Shown here: piece by piece, positions 3,217 to 63,844 of the stretch
Layout of the letters: each line of letters opens with the position of its first letter
How positions within the stretch are numbered: position 1 is the first letter of the stretch
Assembly (NCBI RefSeq): GCF_016919705.1
Contig: NZ_CP070368.1
Location: 1,054,001 to 1,118,000 of the forward strand
Direction of reading: 5' to 3'
Length of the DNA: 64,000 nucleotides
Source: Paracoccus methylovorus
GTDB taxonomy: Bacteria > Pseudomonadota > Alphaproteobacteria > Rhodobacterales > Rhodobacteraceae
Notes under the pieces: generated by a model
Told to the model about the DNA's origin: nothing
The model's database searches: none
What the model saw: the letters and a program-made list of their open reading frames with translations, nothing else
Translations under genes and position numbers: made by a program

Positions 3217-3810
3217 TCAAGCACCCGCAGGCCTCATTCCTGCCAAAGCTTCGGGTGGCAAAGCAGCAAGCATCTGCGCCACGCTTAGCCCCAATGACGG
3301 ATGCACCCAGCCCGGCGCGATCTCGGCCAAGGGCGCCAGGACGAATCCGCGATCCTGCATGCGGGGATGGGGCAGGATCAGCCGCTCGGGGGCCAGCAGC
3401 GCCTGTTTTGTGGGCGGCAGGTCGCGCCAGTGCTGCTGCATCGCGGCATCGGGCAGCACCAGATCGCCGTGGGCCAGCAGATCCAGATCCAGCCCGCGCG
3501 CCTGCCACCGCGCGCCGTCGCGCTTGCGGCCCAGTTCAGCCTCGATCGCGTGCAGCTCGCGCAAAAGTTGTTCCGGCGGATAGGCGCAGCGAAAAGTGGC
3601 CGCGGCATTCACATATTCGGGACCCGAACCGGGGGGAAAAGCCGGCGTAATCCAGAGACGGCTTACGGCAAGCGGCACAACCTGAGGTAATTCCAAGATT
3701 TTACCCAAGGCAAACCGCAGACTGTCCGCCGGCAAACCTGCCGAACTAGTCAGGTTTGCACCCAGCGCAACGAGGACTAAGTTCGCATTCTGATTTAGGT
3801 TTCGAGACAT
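3217..3810 (-). CDS. folK: 2-amino-4-hydroxy-6-hydroxymethyldihydropteridine pyrophosphokinase
   Basis: The 197-residue protein matches HPPK: a LVALGANL strand near residue 13, the central RGLDLDLLAHGD motif (Asp residues bind the two Mg2+ ions), and the PHPRMQDRGFVLAPL motif. HPPK transfers pyrophosphate from ATP to the pterin in folate synthesis. The segment before VALGANL is a short Asn-rich leader beginning MSRNLNQN. Its ATG lies only 12 bp from the GTG of the divergent NYN gene, so the two promoters must overlap or sit inside the opposing reading frames. Confidence 0.92.
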   Translation of the reverse strand: MSRNLNQNANLVLVALGANLTSSAGLPADSLRFALGKILELPQVVPLAVSRLWITPAFPPGSGPEYVNAAATFRCAYPPEQLLRELHAIEAELGRKRDGARWQARGLDLDLLAHGDLVLPDAAMQQHWRDLPPTKQALLAPERLILPHPRMQDRGFVLAPLAEIAPGWVHPSLGLSVAQMLAALPPEALAGMRPAGA

Positions 3811-3822
3811 CTCGGGGGAAAC

Positions 3823-4374
3823 GTGTTTTACAAGGACGACCGGCTGGCGTTGTTCATTGACGGGTCGAATCTATATGCCGCGGCAAAGTCGTTGGGATTT
3901 GATATCGACTACAAATTGCTACGACAGGAATTCGAACGGCGCGGAAAACTGGTCCGCGCCTATTATTATACGGCACTGCTGGAGAACGAGGAATATTCAC
4001 CAATTCGCCCTTTGGTTGATTGGCTGCATTACAATGGCTATTCCATGGTAACGAAACCTGCGCGCGAATATACCGATGCGCTGGGTCGCCGCAAGGTCAA
4101 GGGCAACATGGATGTCGAGTTGGTGGTCAATGCCATGGAGCTGGCGCCACGACTGGACCACGCGGTCCTGTTTTCGGGCGACGGCGACTTCCGACCGTTG
4201 GTCGAGGCGCTTCAGCGCCTGGGCGTGCGTGTCTCGGTGGTGTCGACCATGCGCAGTCAACCACCGATGATCGCCGACGAATTGCGTCGTCAGGCCGACA
4301 ATTTCATTGAACTCGACGCGTTGCGCGACATTATCGGACGCCCGCCACGCGAACCCGCACCGCAGGAAAGCTGA
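3823..4374 (+). CDS. NYN domain protein, LabA/DUF88-like (probable RNase)
   Basis: The 183-residue protein starts at a GTG (3823). It has the NYN/PIN-like acidic set: Asp13 in FIDGSNLY, Asp97 in KGNMDVEL, and Asp120 and Asp122 in FSGDGDFRPLVEAL. NYN proteins share the PIN nuclease fold and are thought to process RNA with one metal ion; this subfamily resembles LabA/DUF88. All metal-ligand positions look intact, so an active nuclease is likely, but the substrate is unknown. It is read away from folK and converges on the OmpA-like gene, with an inverted repeat in the gap. The domain call is firm; the function is inferred. Confidence 0.85.
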   Translation: MFYKDDRLALFIDGSNLYAAAKSLGFDIDYKLLRQEFERRGKLVRAYYYTALLENEEYSPIRPLVDWLHYNGYSMVTKPAREYTDALGRRKVKGNMDVELVVNAMELAPRLDHAVLFSGDGDFRPLVEALQRLGVRVSVVSTMRSQPPMIADELRRQADNFIELDALRDIIGRPPREPAPQES

Positions 4375-45109: not shown

Positions 45110-45595
45110 ATGAACAAGGACCCGATTCGCGAAACGACCGATGATGCCCGCGCACTGGCCCGGCAATTGCTCGAGCGCGCGCGCCATGCCAGCCTGGGTA
45201 CGCTCGACCCAGAAACGGGCGCGCCTCTGGTAACCCGCATTGCCCTGCAATCCGACACCGATGGTGCGCCGCTTGCCCTGCTGTCGGGGCTTGCCACACA
45301 TAGCCGTGCGTTGGCCACCGACCCGCGCGTCGGATTGCTGATCGTGGCCGAGGCTGACAAGGGCGACGCCATGACCCATGCCCGCCTGTCGATTCTTGGC
45401 CGCGCCCTGCCCGTGCAGCCGGACGACCGGCGCCGCGCTCGTTGGCTGGACCGCGATCCCAAGGCGCGGGTCTATCTGGATCTGCCGGATTTTCGCTTCT
45501 GGCGGATCGAGCCGGTCTCGGGCCTGCTGAACGCGGGTTTCGGTCAGGCATTCCGACTGCAACCCGGTGACATGCTGAAACCCCCGGCGGAATGA
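45110..45595 (+). CDS. Pyridoxamine 5'-phosphate oxidase-fold protein (HugZ-like)
   Basis: The 161-residue split-barrel protein starts MNKDPIRETTDDARALARQLLERARHASLGTLDPETGAPLVTRIALQSD and has HSRALATDPRVGLLIV. The fold binds FMN or heme; short forms like this occur in heme utilisation and flavin reductase roles. It lacks the C-terminal domain of full HugZ proteins. It follows oppF on the same strand but shares no evident function with peptide uptake. The exact cofactor is unknown. Confidence 0.8.
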   Translation: MNKDPIRETTDDARALARQLLERARHASLGTLDPETGAPLVTRIALQSDTDGAPLALLSGLATHSRALATDPRVGLLIVAEADKGDAMTHARLSILGRALPVQPDDRRRARWLDRDPKARVYLDLPDFRFWRIEPVSGLLNAGFGQAFRLQPGDMLKPPAE

Positions 45596-45631: not shown

Positions 45632-47926
45632 TCAGTCCGGGTTGTCCATGCGCAGGCGCAACCTGACCGAGCCGCGCACCGCTGTGCCCCAGTTCACGGC
45701 AACCTGCTGCCGCGCCGTGCCCACGGCGGCCTGCACCCAAGGCATCTCGGTGATGCGCGTATTCCCGGCATTGGTGATCTGGCTGGTCGCATGAATGGAT
45801 TCGACATTGCGCACCCAGCCGTTGAACGGCAGCGCCTGATTCACCGTCAGCAGCCAGCGGTTCGAGGCGGTGGATTGCGTGTGCGACACATCCACCGGGT
45901 TGGCGACATAGGTGTTCACGCCGTTGAACATATTGCCCTGAAAGTGAATGTTGCGCATCCGCTGATAGTTCAGGCCGGCAAAGGTGGTATCCACCTTTTC
46001 GACACGGGCGATCTTGGTGAACAGCGATTTGAACACATTGCCCATTACCGACAGCCCATGGATGAAATGCCCGCTGCCATAGGGCTTGACCACCAGCCAA
46101 GTGAACCCCGACGTGGTGTTCGAGGCCAGAAAGGTGTTGCCGGTGATCGTCAGCCCGCCGAACGAGTATTCGTCCCCCTCGAAATTCGGAAAAGGGTCAT
46201 GTTCGTTCGTCCATTCGATCGAGCAATTGTCGATATAGTTCCCCACAACCGTTGCCTGCACATTTGTCTGGGTCAGCACCAGCCCCCCGAAGCGGACGCC
46301 ATTCTGGGCATTGTCACCCTGAAACCAGTGGTTGCCTTCGATCATGTGGCCGCCGCCGTTCATGACGGCGAAATGCGCGAAACGGTTAAAGCGGCTGTGG
46401 CGGATCTTGGTGTCGTTGTTGTTGACGTTCAGCGCGATGGTGGAACGGTTCTGGGCCAGCGCGCTCATCTCATTCGACAAGAACTCGCAGCGCTCAACCA
46501 GCATCCCCTGACAGGCCGTGCCGATCGAGGTGATGCCGCGATCCTTGGGACGGGTGAAATAGCAATCGCGAAAACAGTTCATGTTGCCGGTCTTGGCCAG
46601 CATGACGCCACTGGCATTTCCCTCGAGCACGAATTCGATATCGTCGAAGTTGAAGCGGCTGAGATGCTCCATCTCGGAAAAATCGAAAGCATAGCGATAG
46701 CGCGTAAAGGTATAGGTGCGCGTGGCAGCCCCACCGTAAAGCGGCTGCGATAAAGTCAGCGTGCCCGCCGCCACGTTCTTGGCCGTGACATAAACCTCGC
46801 GCCCGACGCCATTGCCCGAGACGCGCGCGCCGATCTCGATATTGGCGATATTCTTGACGGCAGTAAGCATTTGCGACTTCGCCGGATCATAGGTCCCGGC
46901 CGATGTCACCACCCGCGTATCCCAGGCCGTGCCCGGCACGATGCTGATCTGGCCATTGGCAATCACGCGGCGGTTGGCAAAGCTGGTCATGCCCGGAACC
47001 GCGCCGGAAATGGTGATCGGTTCGTCCAGATGCACGTTGCGTCCGCACAGATCCAGCACCGAATGATCGGTAAAGCCCAGCAGGGCCTGCAAGGCGCGTT
47101 TCATCCCCTCGGTCTCGTCGCCGAAGGCAGCGGCATAGGTGGGATAGTCAAAGCTGCGGGTCAGCGCCAGCCGGGCAGTGCGCGGCATGGTCAGCGTGCC
47201 GACAAAGCGAATGGGCGAAGAAATGTTAAGGTCCGAACCGATGTGATAGCGCCCTTCGGGCACCAGCACCTGCCGCCCCGCCGCGGCCTGATCGGCAGCG
47301 ACGAATGCACCGCGATCATTGGCCACCCCGTCACCGACAGCGCCGAAATCGCGCACATCGACCCAATCCAGCATCCCCGGCACGAAGGCCGCAGTCACGT
47401 CCTCGATCACCAGGCTTTCGATGCGGATCGAGCCGTTGTTGTCGCCTGTCAGGTCCAGTCCGAAATGCCCGAAAGTGGCATTGCGTCCCCAAGGCATGTC
47501 CACGCCGTCGCGTCGTCCGGTGCCGACGATGGCACTGACCTCGACCACCTGGCCGTAACCCGGCAGCGTGACCGCAGGTCCGGTTTGCGTGACGCCGGCC
47601 ACGTTGTTTCCCGCGGCATTGCCGGCGAAGGCGGCGATACGCACCTGCGGCAAGTTGCCGGCAATGGCTTTCACCCGGGTCGAGATGCGCAGATAACTGC
47701 CCGGGTTGATGGGTGTCCGCTGCATATAGCGGATCGAGGTCACGGCCGCTTGCTTGAGGATTTCCAGACAACTGCCGAAATCCTCATCCGCCGGAACGAT
47801 GGCCGCGTTCGCCGCCCCTGCCCATGTCGGAGATCCCGCCCGGCCATCGGTCTGGGACCACAGATTCAGGCCCAGCCGAAAGGCCCGCGGCATCAACGAC
47901 TGGGTGCCGATAATCGCAATGGTCAT
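45632..47926 (-). CDS. Large right-handed beta-helix protein (pectate-lyase-3-like); possible GTA tail fibre
   Basis: The 764-residue protein begins MTIAIIGTQSLMPRAFRLGLNLWS and has no signal peptide or membrane helix. Residues 1-185 form a distinct N-terminal domain. At about 187 the pectate-lyase-3 start VDWVDVRDFGAVGDGVANDRGAFVAADQAAAGRQVLVPEGRYHIG leads into a long parallel beta-helix (about 200-690) with repeated Asn/Gly strands. A beta-sandwich-like C-terminus follows. This plan resembles phage tailspikes. In Rhodobacter capsulatus such a protein serves as the gene transfer agent tail fibre, encoded away from the main cluster and under CtrA control. A perfect CtrA box lies 74 bp upstream of its ATG. 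A polysaccharide-degrading enzyme is the alternative. Confidence 0.72.
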   Translation of the reverse strand: MTIAIIGTQSLMPRAFRLGLNLWSQTDGRAGSPTWAGAANAAIVPADEDFGSCLEILKQAAVTSIRYMQRTPINPGSYLRISTRVKAIAGNLPQVRIAAFAGNAAGNNVAGVTQTGPAVTLPGYGQVVEVSAIVGTGRRDGVDMPWGRNATFGHFGLDLTGDNNGSIRIESLVIEDVTAAFVPGMLDWVDVRDFGAVGDGVANDRGAFVAADQAAAGRQVLVPEGRYHIGSDLNISSPIRFVGTLTMPRTARLALTRSFDYPTYAAAFGDETEGMKRALQALLGFTDHSVLDLCGRNVHLDEPITISGAVPGMTSFANRRVIANGQISIVPGTAWDTRVVTSAGTYDPAKSQMLTAVKNIANIEIGARVSGNGVGREVYVTAKNVAAGTLTLSQPLYGGAATRTYTFTRYRYAFDFSEMEHLSRFNFDDIEFVLEGNASGVMLAKTGNMNCFRDCYFTRPKDRGITSIGTACQGMLVERCEFLSNEMSALAQNRSTIALNVNNNDTKIRHSRFNRFAHFAVMNGGGHMIEGNHWFQGDNAQNGVRFGGLVLTQTNVQATVVGNYIDNCSIEWTNEHDPFPNFEGDEYSFGGLTITGNTFLASNTTSGFTWLVVKPYGSGHFIHGLSVMGNVFKSLFTKIARVEKVDTTFAGLNYQRMRNIHFQGNMFNGVNTYVANPVDVSHTQSTASNRWLLTVNQALPFNGWVRNVESIHATSQITNAGNTRITEMPWVQAAVGTARQQVAVNWGTAVRGSVRLRLRMDNPD

Positions 47927-47999
47927 GCCAATTCTCTCCTAATCCAGAACATGCGGGGCGGTTGCCCGCGCGGTCCGGCAGGAATTTGGCAATCTCACG

Positions 48000-48015
48000 T
48001 TAACCAGTCGTTAAC
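48000..48015 (-). promoter_or_regulatory. Perfect CtrA binding site
   Basis: TTAA-CCAGTCG-TTAAC matches the full CtrA consensus TTAA-N7-TTAAC exactly, and the reverse strand also matches (TTAA-CGACTGG-TTAAC). It lies 74 bp upstream of the beta-helix gene start and after the lysS stop, so the beta-helix gene is its only plausible target. CtrA controls cell cycle, motility and gene transfer agent genes in alphaproteobacteria. Confidence 0.75.
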
Positions 48016-48065: not shown

Positions 48066-49655
48066 TCAGGCTGTTGGTTCGGAAACCAGCTCTCCGGCCA
48101 GCGCCCGTTCGATCAGCACCCGCGTCTCATCCACGCCGTAAAGCGCGATAAAGCCACCAAAGCGGGGACCCTGATCGGCGCCCAGAAGCACCTGATACAG
48201 CGTCTGGAACCAGTCCTTCATCGGCTCGAACCCATGTTCTCGGCCGATGGCAAAGACCATGGTTTGCAGGGCCTCGGCATCGGCGGGCTGGTCCCATGCG
48301 GCCAGACGACCTGCCAGATCCTCCAGGGCGCGGCGCTCGACCTCGGTAGGCGCGCGGAAGGTCCGGGTCGGAGCCACGAAGTCCGTGAAATAACGCACGG
48401 CAAACTCGGCGGCCTGATCCAGCGTCGGGTGCGTCTTGGGGCTGGCCTCGGGCGCATAGCGGCGGATAAAGCCCCACAACCCGGTCTTGTCCTTGGCCCC
48501 AGCAACCGAGGCGAGGTTCAGCAGCATCTGGAATGGTACCACCATGTCCGAGGCCGGCACATCGCCGCCATGGATATGCCAGACAGGATTGGCGAGTTGC
48601 TGCTCGGCCGTCTGGTCGGGATAGGCGCGCAACTGCTGGTGATATTCGTCCACCGCCTTGGGGATGACGTCGAAATACATCCGTTTCGCCGTCTTGGGCT
48701 TTTGGAACATGAAATAGGACAGGCTCTCGGTCGCGGCATAGGTCAGCCATTCGTCGATCGAAAGACCATTTCCCTTGGATTTGCTGATCTTCTGGCCGTG
48801 CTGGTCCAGGAACAGCTCATAGGTGAAATGTTCCGGCGCCCGCCCGCCCAGAATATTACAGATCGAATCGTAGATCGGCGTGTTGGTGGAATGATCCTTG
48901 CCGTACATCTCGAAATCCACGTCCAGCGCCGCCCAGCGAGCGCCGAAATCGGGCTTCCATTGCAGCTTCACATTGCCGCCGGTGATGGGCAGCGTCGTTT
49001 CCTCGCCCTCGTCGTCAAAGGTGATCGTGCCGTTTTTCGCATCGATATGCTTGATCGGCACATACAGCACCCGGCCCGATTTGGGGCTGATCGGCAGGAA
49101 GCAGGAATAGGTCTGCTGCCGCTCCTCGCGCAGAGAGGCCAGCATGACCTCCATGATGGCGTCGTATTTCTCGGCGGCTTTCAGCAGCGTCGCGTCGAAC
49201 TGGCCCGACTTGTAGAACTCGGTCGCGCTGATGAATTCATATTCGAAACCAAAGGTATCCAGGAACCGGCGCAGCATGGCGTTATTATGGGCGCCGAAAC
49301 TGTCGTATTCGCCGAACGGGTCCGGCACGGTGGTCAGCGGCTCTTGCAGATGCTGGTGCAGCATCTCGTTGTTGGGCACGTTGTCGGGCACTTTGCGCAT
49401 CCCGTCCAGATCGTCCGAGAAACAGAACAACCGCGTCGGAATATCCGAGATCATCTGGAACGCCCGGCGCACCATCGTCGTGCGCGCCACCTCGCCAAAG
49501 GTGCCGATATGCGGCAGACCCGAGGGGCCGTAGCCGGTCTCGAACAGCACATAACCCTTGTCGGGGTCCTTCTTTTCATAGCGTTTCAGCACGCGGCGGG
49601 CCTCTTCAAAGGGCCAAGCCTTGGATTTCATCGCGGCATCACGCAGGGCGGTCAT
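48066..49655 (-). CDS. lysS: Lysyl-tRNA synthetase, class I
   Basis: The 529-residue protein has class I signatures: a HIGH-type [16 protein letters not shown] (residues about 43-58) and KMSKS-type [15 protein letters not shown] (near 287). Class I LysRS is found in archaea and in some bacteria including alphaproteobacteria, instead of the class II enzyme of E. coli. The start ATG at 49655 is supported by N-terminal alignment; a second in-frame ATG follows eight codons later. Divergent from the TerB-like gene. Confidence 0.96.
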
Positions 49656-51626: not shown

Positions 51627-52240
51627 GAGCGTCCCTTCTCGTCGCCCTGCCCCGCCCCCGCGCGGATCGCGCTGGAGCTCAGCTTGTTCAGCGGCAGGTT
51701 TATCATTACCCAGGCCGGAGGCATAGCGCGCGCCAGCCGCCGCGCCTGCGTCTCGGGCAGACGGGCGCGCCACAGCATCCGCGCCGCACGCGAAAACCGC
51801 GCCGGCATCTGCCAGCCGGGACGCGCGATCACGCCGATCGGCACACGGGCGGCGATGTCCTGCCAACGGTCCCAGCGGTCGAACTGCACCAGATTGTCCG
51901 CCCCCATCAGCCAGACAAAATGCACGCCGGGGTAAAGCCGTTGCAGCGCCACAAGGGTGTCGCGGGTCATGCGGGTGCCCAGCCCCGCCTCGATCCCGGT
52001 GATCTCGACCCGGGGATTGCGCATGATCCGCCGGGCGCGGGCGATACGTTCGGCCAGCGGCGCCGGGCCATGCGGCTTTAGCGGGTTGCCGGGGCTGACC
52101 AGCCACCAGATGCGGTCAAGCCCAAAGCGGCGCAACGCCTCTTCGGTGATCTGCACATGGCCTTCATGCGCGGGGTCGAAGGAACCGCCCAAAAGGCCGA
52201 CCGTCATGCCCGGCCGCGCGATGGGAAACCCTGCGCGCAT
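51623..52240 (-). CDS. nadD: Nicotinate-nucleotide adenylyltransferase
   Basis: The 205-residue protein has the nucleotidyltransferase start [27 protein letters not shown] (GxFDPxHxGH) and the C-terminal [16 protein letters not shown] (SxTxxR-like). It adenylates nicotinate mononucleotide in NAD synthesis. The ATG at 52240 directly follows the fhs stop by three bases; an in-frame ATG at 52207 would also work. Confidence 0.93.
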
Positions 52241-52243
52241 CAA

Positions 52244-53911
52244 TCAGAACAGGCCCTGGACATGCCCGTCAGCATCCAGCCCCACGCGCAGCGCCGCAGG
52301 ATCGCGCGGCAGGCCCGGCATCGTCATGATGTCGCCGCAGATCGCCACCACGAACCCCGCGCCGGCCGCCAGTCGAACCTCGCGCACGGGAATGGTAAAG
52401 CCCTCAGGCGCGCCAAGTGCCGCCGGATTGGCGGAAAAGGAATATTGCGTCTTGGCCATGCAGACCGGCAAATGGCCGTATCCGGCGGCCTGCCACTCGT
52501 TCAGCCGTTCAAGGATATGCGGCAGGAACTCGACCTGATCGGCGCGATAGATGCGGCGACAGATGGTTTCGATCTTTTCGGCCAGCGGCATTTCGTCGGG
52601 ATAGAGCGGCGTAAAATCCCCACCTCCCTCGGTAAGTGCGACCACGGCATGGGCCAGTTCCTCGGCGCCCCGGCCGCCCTCGGCCCAATGGCGGCACAGC
52701 ACCGCCTGAACGCCATGTTCGCGGCAGTAATCGGAAAGCGCGGCGATCTCGGCATCGCTGTCCCCCGAGAAATGGTTGATCGCCACCACCACCGGCAGGC
52801 CAAAACTGCGCATATTCTCGATATGGCGGCCCAGATTGGCACAGCCCGCCTGCAATGCCGCGACATTTTCCGCCGCAAGATCGGCGCGCGCGACGCCGCC
52901 GTTCATCTTCAGCGCCCGCACCGTGGCCACCAGCACGGCGGCGTCGGGCTGCAGGCCGGCCAACCGGCATTTGATGTTGAGGAATTTCTCGGCCCCCAGA
53001 TCCGCACCGAAACCGGCCTCGGTCACCACGTAATCCGACAGCGCCAAAGCCGTGCGTGTGGCCATGACCGAGTTGCAGCCATGCGCGATATTGGCGAAAG
53101 GCCCGCCGTGGACCAGCGCCGGGTTGTTTTCCAGCGTCTGCACCAGATTGGGCTGCAAGGCATCGCGCAGCAGCACGGTCATCGCACCCTCGGCCCCCAG
53201 ATCATGCGCGGTCACCGGCTTGCGGTCAAAGGTCTGGCCGATGACGATACGTCCCAGCCGCGCCTGCAAATCGGCCAGATCCGAGGCCAGACACAGGATC
53301 GCCATCACCTCGGAGGCGACGGTGATGTCAAAGCCGCATTCGCGCGGCACCCCGTTTGCCGGACCGCCAAGCGCCACCACAACCTGACGCAACACCCGGT
53401 CGTTCATGTCCATGACCCGCCGCCATGTCACCCGACGCGGGTCGATACGCAGCGCATTGCCCCAATGGATATGGTTGTCGATCATCGCCGCCAGCAGGTT
53501 GTGCGCGCTGGTCACGGCATGGAAATCGCCGGTGAAATGCAGGTTCATGTCCTCCATCGGCACGATCTGCGCGTAACCGCCGCCCGCGGCCCCGCCCTTC
53601 ATGCCGAAATTCGGACCCAAGGATGCCTCGCGGATGCAGACGGTGGCCTGCTTGCCGATCCGGTTCAGTGCGTCGCCCAGACCGACCGTGGTGGTGGTCT
53701 TGCCCTCGCCCGCCGGGGTGGGGTTGATCGCGGTGACCAGGATCAGCCGGCCCTGTGGACGCCCGGCAATACCCGCAATGACCTCATGCGCGATCTTGGC
53801 CTTGTCATGGCCATAGGGCAGGAAATCGGCCTCGCCCAACCCCAGCCGGGCTGCAATCTGCGCGATGGGCAGCTTTTCCGCCTCGCGGGCGATCTGGATA
53901 TCCGATTTCAT
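52244..53911 (-). CDS. fhs: Formate--tetrahydrofolate ligase
   Basis: The 555-residue protein has [27 protein letters not shown] (P-loop), [39 protein letters not shown], and [19 protein letters not shown]. It activates formate to 10-formyltetrahydrofolate with ATP, supplying one-carbon units and, in formate or methanol users, feeding assimilation. The ATG at 53911 has GGAGAG upstream; the longer in-frame extension to 54724 is antisense to opgC. First gene before nadD-dacB. Confidence 0.95.
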
Positions 53912-63056: not shown

Positions 63057-63488
63057 ATGGAGACCAGCGTGGCACGAAACCTGATGTCGAACGACGAGTG
63101 GGCGTTCTTTGAACGCTTCATCCTGGCTGTCCGTTCTCCGAACGGCCGCAAGCCCACGAACCATCGGCTTGTTCTGGATGGGATTTTCTGGATCGCCCGA
63201 ACGGGGTCGCCCTGGCGCGACCTGCCGGAAGAGTTCGGCAAATGGTCGTCTGTCTATCGGCAGTTCCGGCGCTGGACGTTGGCGGGGCTGTGGGAACAGA
63301 TCCTGGAGGCGCTGAACGAGAGCCGGATCGTGCCGGATGCGCTGCAGATGATCGACAGCACCGTGGTTCGCGCTCATCATCAGGCAGCGGGCGCAAAAGG
63401 GGGACTCCGCGCCAAGGTTTCGGCCGCTCGCGAGGTGGCTTCACGACCAAGATCCATCTGCGGGTCAATGCGGCAGGCCTGCCCATGA
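63057..63488 (+). CDS. IS5/IS427-type transposase, upstream frame (orfA)
   Basis: The 143-residue frame begins METSVARNLMSNDEWAFFERFILAV; an internal ATG gives MSNDEWAFFERF. It holds the DUF4096-like N-terminal domain (RTGSPWRDLPEEFGKWSSVYRQFRRW) and the first catalytic Asp in LQMIDSTVVRAHHQAAGAKGG. After about codon 114 the sequence loses transposase character, and the real continuation is in the -1 frame. The change occurs around AAAAGGGGG (63395-63403). Confidence 0.85.
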   Translation: METSVARNLMSNDEWAFFERFILAVRSPNGRKPTNHRLVLDGIFWIARTGSPWRDLPEEFGKWSSVYRQFRRWTLAGLWEQILEALNESRIVPDALQMIDSTVVRAHHQAAGAKGGLRAKVSAAREVASRPRSICGSMRQACP

Positions 63489-63844
63489 GAACCGAGATCA
63501 CGGCCGGGCAGACATCGGACTACCTCGGCTTCGATCTGGTCATGGCTGACAACCTGCCCGAGCCAAGCGTTCTGCTCGCAGACCGCGGCTACGACTCCGA
63601 CAACATCCGCAAGACCATGGAGGTGCGCGACGTGGTGCCGGTCATCCCCATGCGCAAAACCCGGAAGCTACGGGTCGCCGTTGACCGCAGGCTCTACCGC
63701 CTGCGCAATCTCGTTGAGCGGTGCTTCAACAAGCTCAAGAATGCCCGTCGCGTCGCCACCCGCTACGACAAGACCGCCGAAAGCTTCCTGGGCTTCATCG
63801 ACATCACGTCGATCCGCCTCTGGCTCCGCCATTTGTCAACATGA
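63242..63844 (+). CDS. IS5/IS427-type transposase, downstream frame (orfB)
   Basis: The meaningful part starts near 63395 in this frame: RKRGTPRQGFGRSRGGFTTKIHLRVNAAG. It continues through LLADRGYDSDNIRK (second catalytic Asp) and YRLRNLVERCFNKLKNARRVATRYDK (catalytic Glu). It ends ITSIRLWLRHLST just inside the right terminal repeat. Residues encoded before 63395 in this frame are shadow. It would be expressed as a fusion with orfA by -1 frameshifting. Confidence 0.85.
   Translation: MVVCLSAVPALDVGGAVGTDPGGAEREPDRAGCAADDRQHRGSRSSSGSGRKRGTPRQGFGRSRGGFTTKIHLRVNAAGLPMRTEITAGQTSDYLGFDLVMADNLPEPSVLLADRGYDSDNIRKTMEVRDVVPVIPMRKTRKLRVAVDRRLYRLRNLVERCFNKLKNARRVATRYDKTAESFLGFIDITSIRLWLRHLST

Follow-up and report, generated by a model that had tools for sequence, protein, structure and literature searches.

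The DNA examined here, called the window throughout, is a stretch of 64,000 nt from Paracoccus methylovorus (GCF_016919705.1, NZ_CP070368.1 positions 1,054,001-1,118,000); unless a contig is named, coordinates are window positions. Next to lysS it carries a gene for a 764-residue protein that is very probably the Paracoccus ortholog of TspA (Rcc02623) and would act in the programme of the gene transfer agent (GTA). TspA of Rhodobacter capsulatus was recently described as a detachable tail spike of the GTA that dissolves the biofilm around target cells; its trimeric state, attachment to the GTA particle, activity and GafA binding have been shown (PMC13420450, a preprint of July 2026). The features of the locus are as follows.

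45632-47926, minus strand: putative tspA ortholog, GTA tailspike / biofilm depolymerase, 764 residues, ATG start (homologs, residues, model; PMC13420450)
47387-47926, minus strand: N-terminal beta-sandwich domain, residues 1-180 (model strands between 41 and 176; boundary transferred from TspA)
47177-47365, minus strand: PF12708 match, residues 188-250, cap region (Pfam)
45905-47386, minus strand: predicted right-handed beta-helix, residues 181-674 (model and fold matches; boundaries from TspA)
46694-46918, minus strand: insertion domain within the beta-helix, residues 337-411 (boundaries from TspA)
45635-45904, minus strand: C-terminal domain, residues 675-764, the trimerisation part in TspA (model; TspA boundary)
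46412-46414, minus strand: codon D505, conserved residue of the TspA active-site cleft (47 of 47 rows from GTA-positive genomes)
46328-46330, minus strand: codon H533, required for TspA activity (mutagenesis in PMC13420450)
46229-46231, minus strand: codon D566, required for TspA activity (mutagenesis in PMC13420450)
47999-48016, minus strand: extended CtrA-type promoter box GGTTAACGACTGGTTAAC, in the stretch bound by GafA in R. capsulatus (motif scan)
48066-49655, minus strand: lysS, class I lysyl-tRNA synthetase (PF01921), neighbor of tspA (family search)
45110-45595: pyridoxamine-oxidase-fold gene (PF01243), the other neighbor (family search)

An earlier note, made from the window alone, had proposed a 764-residue tailspike-like protein standing between an oxidase-fold gene and lysS, and the frame, its ATG start and both neighbors are confirmed. 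Homologs occur in 121 of 125 genomes of the genus, mostly as a single full-length copy (four genomes have none and a few have split copies), and in 315 of 394 genomes sampled across the family, so the reading frame is not a chance one. The gene adjoins lysS in 30 of 30 loci of the genus. The sole Pfam match is the pectate-lyase-type domain PF12708 at residues 188-250, and the predicted structure (mean predicted local distance difference test score, pLDDT, 88.6) is rich in strands at both ends, with a long beta-helix between, which is the tailspike plan that had been claimed. Inspection of N-terminal hydropathy (hydropathy only, no predictor) shows no stretch resembling a signal peptide, again as the note had it.

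Comparison of the model with known folds returns phage tailspikes beside cellular polysaccharide enzymes, so the matches are not confined to the secreted lyases that had been weighed against a tailspike (the structural alignment with VIA-align spanned chiefly residues 238-739). The tailspikes of phages HK620 and Sf6 share the right-handed beta-helix depolymerase fold at approximately 9-17 percent identity in structural alignments, and that of Sf6 likewise has its active site between subunits (PMC13420450). They carry a phage anchoring domain where proteins of the TspA type have an N-terminal sandwich (PMC13420450). The GH87 alpha-1,3-glucanases (5zru, 6k0m, 7c7d), which are cellular enzymes with no link to a particle, share the fold over the beta-helix at approximately 9-12 percent identity, and the GH87 enzyme of Streptomyces thermodiastaticus has an N-terminal domain similar to that of TspA (PMC13420450). 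PHROGs searches give tail-spike and tail-protein matches (best E 3.5e-6), all confined to residues 188-250. Such matches are what one would expect of a prophage tailspike, or the relic of one, stranded beside lysS, yet we give that explanation hardly any credence: searches of phage and plasmid collections with the protein return no match, the family matches are single in 292 of the 315 genomes and nearly always full length among the matches listed, and the tree of tspA groups genomes, by eye, as does the tree of the GTA terminase and megatron parts. On this evidence tspA is to be read as an old gene of the family and no prophage piece.

The case for orthology with TspA rests on adjacency to lysS, length (763/764 residues), domain plan, fold, distribution, and the presence of D505, H533 and D566 at identical numbers, these three being invariant in 59 of 59 aligned sequences. 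Both proteins also lack a full-length phage homolog and belong to a GTA host. Of the TspA calcium ligands, E271 and D287 are found in all 59 sequences (46 of 47 and 44 of 47 rows from GTA-positive genomes, respectively), whereas those at 297 and 299 and those of the second site are not kept. The Paracoccus locus differs from that of R. capsulatus in having a promoter with a full double box, and in having its GTA cluster on another contig, a separate replicon in relatives.

The CtrA-type box that the note had placed upstream of the gene is the only full TTAA-N7-TTAA in the window (48000-48014; 0.01 expected from shuffles). The extended box ends 72 nt short of the tspA ATG; in R. capsulatus, the tspA promoter binds GafA 50-100 bp upstream of the start (PMC13420450). 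A full box precedes tspA in 26 of 26 close loci (L002-L027, our own included), starting 77-101 nt upstream of the start codon, and lies within 300 nt in 27 of 59 tspA loci, as against none in shuffles. Its extended form GGTTAACGNNNGGTTAAC is perfect at only two places in the genome, tspA and a locus encoding a holin (GTA_holin_3TM) and a GH108 endolysin. In other genera the sites upstream of tspA are mostly partial, and upstream of 25 endolysin genes from other genera (29 loci tried) there is no full double box, with three of the 25 matching 7 of 8 positions. Putative CtrA half-sites are reported to precede the head spike, fibre and lysis genes of the R. capsulatus GTA, with GafA sites in two of the three (PMC9638019). 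The pattern suggests that TspA and the lysis genes may come under joint late control; going by its box, Paracoccus tspA may depend on CtrA. FliF is present in the genome, so absence of a flagellum is no argument against a flagellar role for a CtrA-controlled gene. Other full TTAA-N7-TTAA sites (L037, L038, L040, L043) lie near genes that we take to resemble divL, cckA, comM and one for a protein of the MshE/GspE type.

A GTA cluster, which the note had suggested looking for elsewhere in the genome, is found on contig C4 (1.5 Mb), tspA being on contig C1. There, terminase- and capsid-like genes (assigned by order) are followed by a megatron gene (1296 residues, 1779 bits to NF048004), a tail fibre gene of 240 residues with DUF2793 (PF10983) directly after it, and then cysE; housekeeping genes are named here from reading their sequences unless a family search is given. 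C4 is probably a separate replicon, since the region has counterparts at 85-86 percent identity on records listed as plasmids, 1.46-2.24 Mb long, in P. denitrificans, P. versutus (two records), P. pantotrophus and P. ferrooxidans. Three genomes (G031, G034, G085) have the joined order megatron-fibre-cysE-pyrD-DUF952-nucleotidase-nadD-dac-lysS-tspA, with approximately 9 kb from megatron to tspA. In P. methylovorus this order is divided, C4 holding it up to the nucleotidase and C1 from nadD onward; at approximately 52207-52244 the order past nadD departs from that of the three genomes, which continue there with the nucleotidase, cysE and GTA genes that here lie on C4.

The fibre gene on C4 bears on a further claim of the note, which had linked the 764-residue protein to GTA tail fibres. 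The link to GTA is retained, while the protein would be a tailspike and depolymerase unrelated to the fibre Rcc00171; in substance the earlier reading is supported. Rcc00171, a surface appendage of the GTA, is likewise encoded away from the main cluster in R. capsulatus (PMC13420450), which would suit a receptor-binding fibre of that type. Rcc00171 is a DUF2793 protein of different fold and domain, consisting of rod, knob and a lectin-like foot over residues 1-371, and the 764-residue protein has no such plan and no DUF2793 match in Pfam, nor does blastp match it to the DUF2793 fibre of this genome, whose gene already follows that of the megatron. With active-site residues invariant as well, a fibre of this kind is scarcely conceivable.

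Three more GTA-like megatron loci are present on C4 (286910-288364, 333306-334199 and 440532-441428; L050-L052), prophage-like by gene order, one of them with a TIM domain match in two pieces inside a frame of 1505 codons. Two transposase-like open reading frames occupy 63057-63844 of the window, the second resembling, by eye, one at the edge of L052.

Co-occurrence was tested with the GTA capsid protein as marker in the 394 family genomes, ignoring kinship. Both genes are found in 267 genomes, tspA only in 48, capsid only in 52 and neither in 27 (odds ratio 2.9, p = 0.0003); stricter cut-offs give 260, 52, 54 and 28 in the same order. Strict tracking of GTA by tspA is rejected by these counts. 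The association is loose, and it follows that GTA is possible without TspA and that TspA can outlast GTA. Among the 52 genomes with tspA and no capsid match at the strict cut-offs, the GTA_TIM domain is nearly whole in 13 (some of prophage type or decaying), represented by one common partial match in 16, otherwise partial in 3, and absent in 20. In these 20 genomes without GTA, tspA is disrupted in four (G168, G246, G372, G459), partial or cut by contig ends in three (G218, G428, G503), and complete with all three active-site residues in 12 (G333, which lacks the last three residues, is counted complete). In G513 (L110), tspA carries H533Q and the endolysin match (L290) has an internal stop. 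An endolysin gene match is found in 15 of the 20, and in 44 of 44 capsid-positive controls. None of those controls has a disrupted tspA, a biased figure given that all were chosen for a single match; split-copy genomes such as G307 fall outside them, and the comparison rests instead on the 260 capsid-positive genomes. Stops flagged in G333 and G271 fall in the last residues and are not counted as disruptions. A two-piece tspA occurs in 4 of 20 genomes without GTA vs. 16 of 260 (p = 0.044), and in 3 of 11 vs. 7 of 203 for assemblies of at most 100 contigs (p = 0.010). This excess of split copies after GTA loss lends moderate support to dependence of tspA on GTA.

The looseness could also be explained if the protein were a CtrA-regulated lyase or hydrolase, unrelated to GTA, that acts on polysaccharide of the cell's own envelope or biofilm: 48 of the 315 tspA-positive genomes have no capsid match, 52 of the 319 capsid-positive genomes have no tspA, and the fold also matches cellular enzymes, among them RbmB of Vibrio cholerae and AlgE epimerases. 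We consider this very unlikely, since the protein has no signal-peptide-like start by hydropathy, its exact box is common to the GTA lysis genes, TspA of R. capsulatus sits on the particle (PMC13420450), and split tspA is commoner after GTA loss.

Several observations nonetheless count against reading the gene as a tspA ortholog that acts in the GTA programme. Co-occurrence is loose, and tspA is complete in 12 of the 20 genomes without GTA. In place of the TspA calcium ligands R297 and D299 the Paracoccus protein has N and H, and the second calcium site (D542, D602, N635) is unconserved. Plain TTAA-N7-TTAA occurs at 12 sites in the genome vs. 18 for the reversed control, which makes it weak evidence by itself; outside close Paracoccus relatives, the full double box is seen at one distant site only.

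The 16 genomes with the common partial GTA_TIM match have, between mltG and cysE and in place of the GTA cluster, a single frame in which the terminase from residue 1 to approximately 178 (ending FDxAWxDE) is joined in frame to the megatron from approximately 634 (xGCxAxDKG). For two of the 16, a contig end coincides with the junction and the fusion begins there; in G178 the frame is broken further on. With a degenerate pattern of the junction, 71 stretches are found in records holding one genome per species, a set that overlaps the 16 genomes of the family sample, and none in viral contigs. The fusion loci of the two sets are L094-L097, L119-L130 and L195-L265. Hosts include Ruegeria, Roseovarius, Sulfitobacter, Thioclava, Rhodobacter, Silicimonas and others, and three Rhizobiales by name (Chelativorans, Mesorhizobium, Phyllobacterium). 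All 71 match the megatron, starting at residue 634-640 except for two alignments that extend back to 603-604, and 70 match the terminase as well; the stop-to-stop frame is at least 780 codons in 41 of the 46 fusions not cut by an end, and the fibre gene is kept in 19 of 47 loci with cysE in view. A full-text literature search, judged by titles and abstract openings, returned no paper evidently describing a terminase-megatron fusion. In G366 (L193, approximately 3584-4127), an insert of approximately 540 bp lies in the megatron near residue 629, close to the fusion junction point.

Quick trees with many weak branches, built for tspA and for the fused parts, scatter the fusions among intact clusters, with well-supported branches forcing at least 8 and at least 6 changes. 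A single clade of fusions is rejected (approximately unbiased test on a quick tree, p = 0.00035). Microhomology as the source of the identical junction is rejected as well: at least 4,150 of 533,200 in-frame codon pairs are equally or more similar (both sites are readable in 12 of 20 intact clusters and unreadable in 8). With the fusions scattered on trees and no unusual similarity between the DNA of the two sites, the same junction recurs in different lineages and no mechanism for this is evident. Either the allele is ancient and persists with its flanks constantly exchanged, or the exact fusion has repeatedly been favored. For 18 filtered pairs of fusions the ratio of nonsynonymous to synonymous substitution (dN/dS) is 0.16-0.57, most pairs being near saturation; the closest or least saturated give 0.16 (L236-L249) and 0.21 (L218-L226). 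A structure model of the fusion (mean pLDDT 72, predicted template modeling score 0.40) does not support a well-folded chimeric domain there: pLDDT is below 50 for residues 184-222 and for most of 255-292, immediately past the junction, while the C-terminal part of the megatron and some of the terminase half are fairly good.

Of the 16 fusion genomes, 15 have an unbroken tspA, the exception being G340 with a frameshift; all 16 keep the three active-site residues, and 15 have an endolysin match. Conservation in fusion vs. GTA-positive genomes is 0.70 vs. 0.65 for loop 26-36 and 0.55 vs. 0.54 for 205-320, the parts that touch the baseplate, and 0.34 vs. 0.37 for the C-terminal domain. These figures would suit a second, particle-independent job for TspA, as a soluble biofilm dispersal enzyme freed by lysis and kept where DNA transfer was abandoned: its active site and lysis partner survive, and the C-terminal domain is slightly less conserved in fusion genomes, the baseplate-touching parts about equally so. 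Such a job is rather improbable; the losses may be recent and retention a lag, and among the 20 genomes without GTA there are four with disrupted tspA and one with H533Q. We hold as slightly less probable again a wider proposal, in which TspA and the lysis genes are a core that can separate from the rest of the GTA programme and persist once DNA transfer is lost; the fusion would be, in many lineages, a second, ancient form of the cluster, often with the fibre gene after it. If so, cells with the fusion would still lyse and would release a biofilm-cutting enzyme without DNA-carrying particles. The full and fused forms could represent an old producer/non-producer polymorphism across genera. A single GTA particle, being small, would have room for the short fused form but not for the full cluster.

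Returning to the reading of the gene as a tspA ortholog, we infer both that the Paracoccus protein acts as R. capsulatus TspA does and what its sugar target would be. A few cells would turn on the GTA programme through CtrA and GafA, and TspA, with no secretion signal, would build up in the cytoplasm and assemble into trimers loosely seated on the baseplate of the GTA. Lysis of the cell by the GTA holin and endolysin would then let TspA out. In clefts between its subunits (D505, H533, D566) it would cut the polysaccharide of biofilm or slime, clearing the route of the particle to recipient cells; the biofilm might be loosened as well.

It would appear, then, that the newly described GTA tailspike extends to Paracoccus, which the main text of PMC13420450 does not name, and that its gene is tied to the lysis genes by a common box that is perfect nowhere else in the genome. 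With tspA split more often after GTA loss, the survey bears on the long retention of lethal gene-transfer particles, and the survival of tspA with an endolysin gene beside a fused cluster makes biofilm remodeling vs. DNA transfer, as the selected benefit, a testable question.
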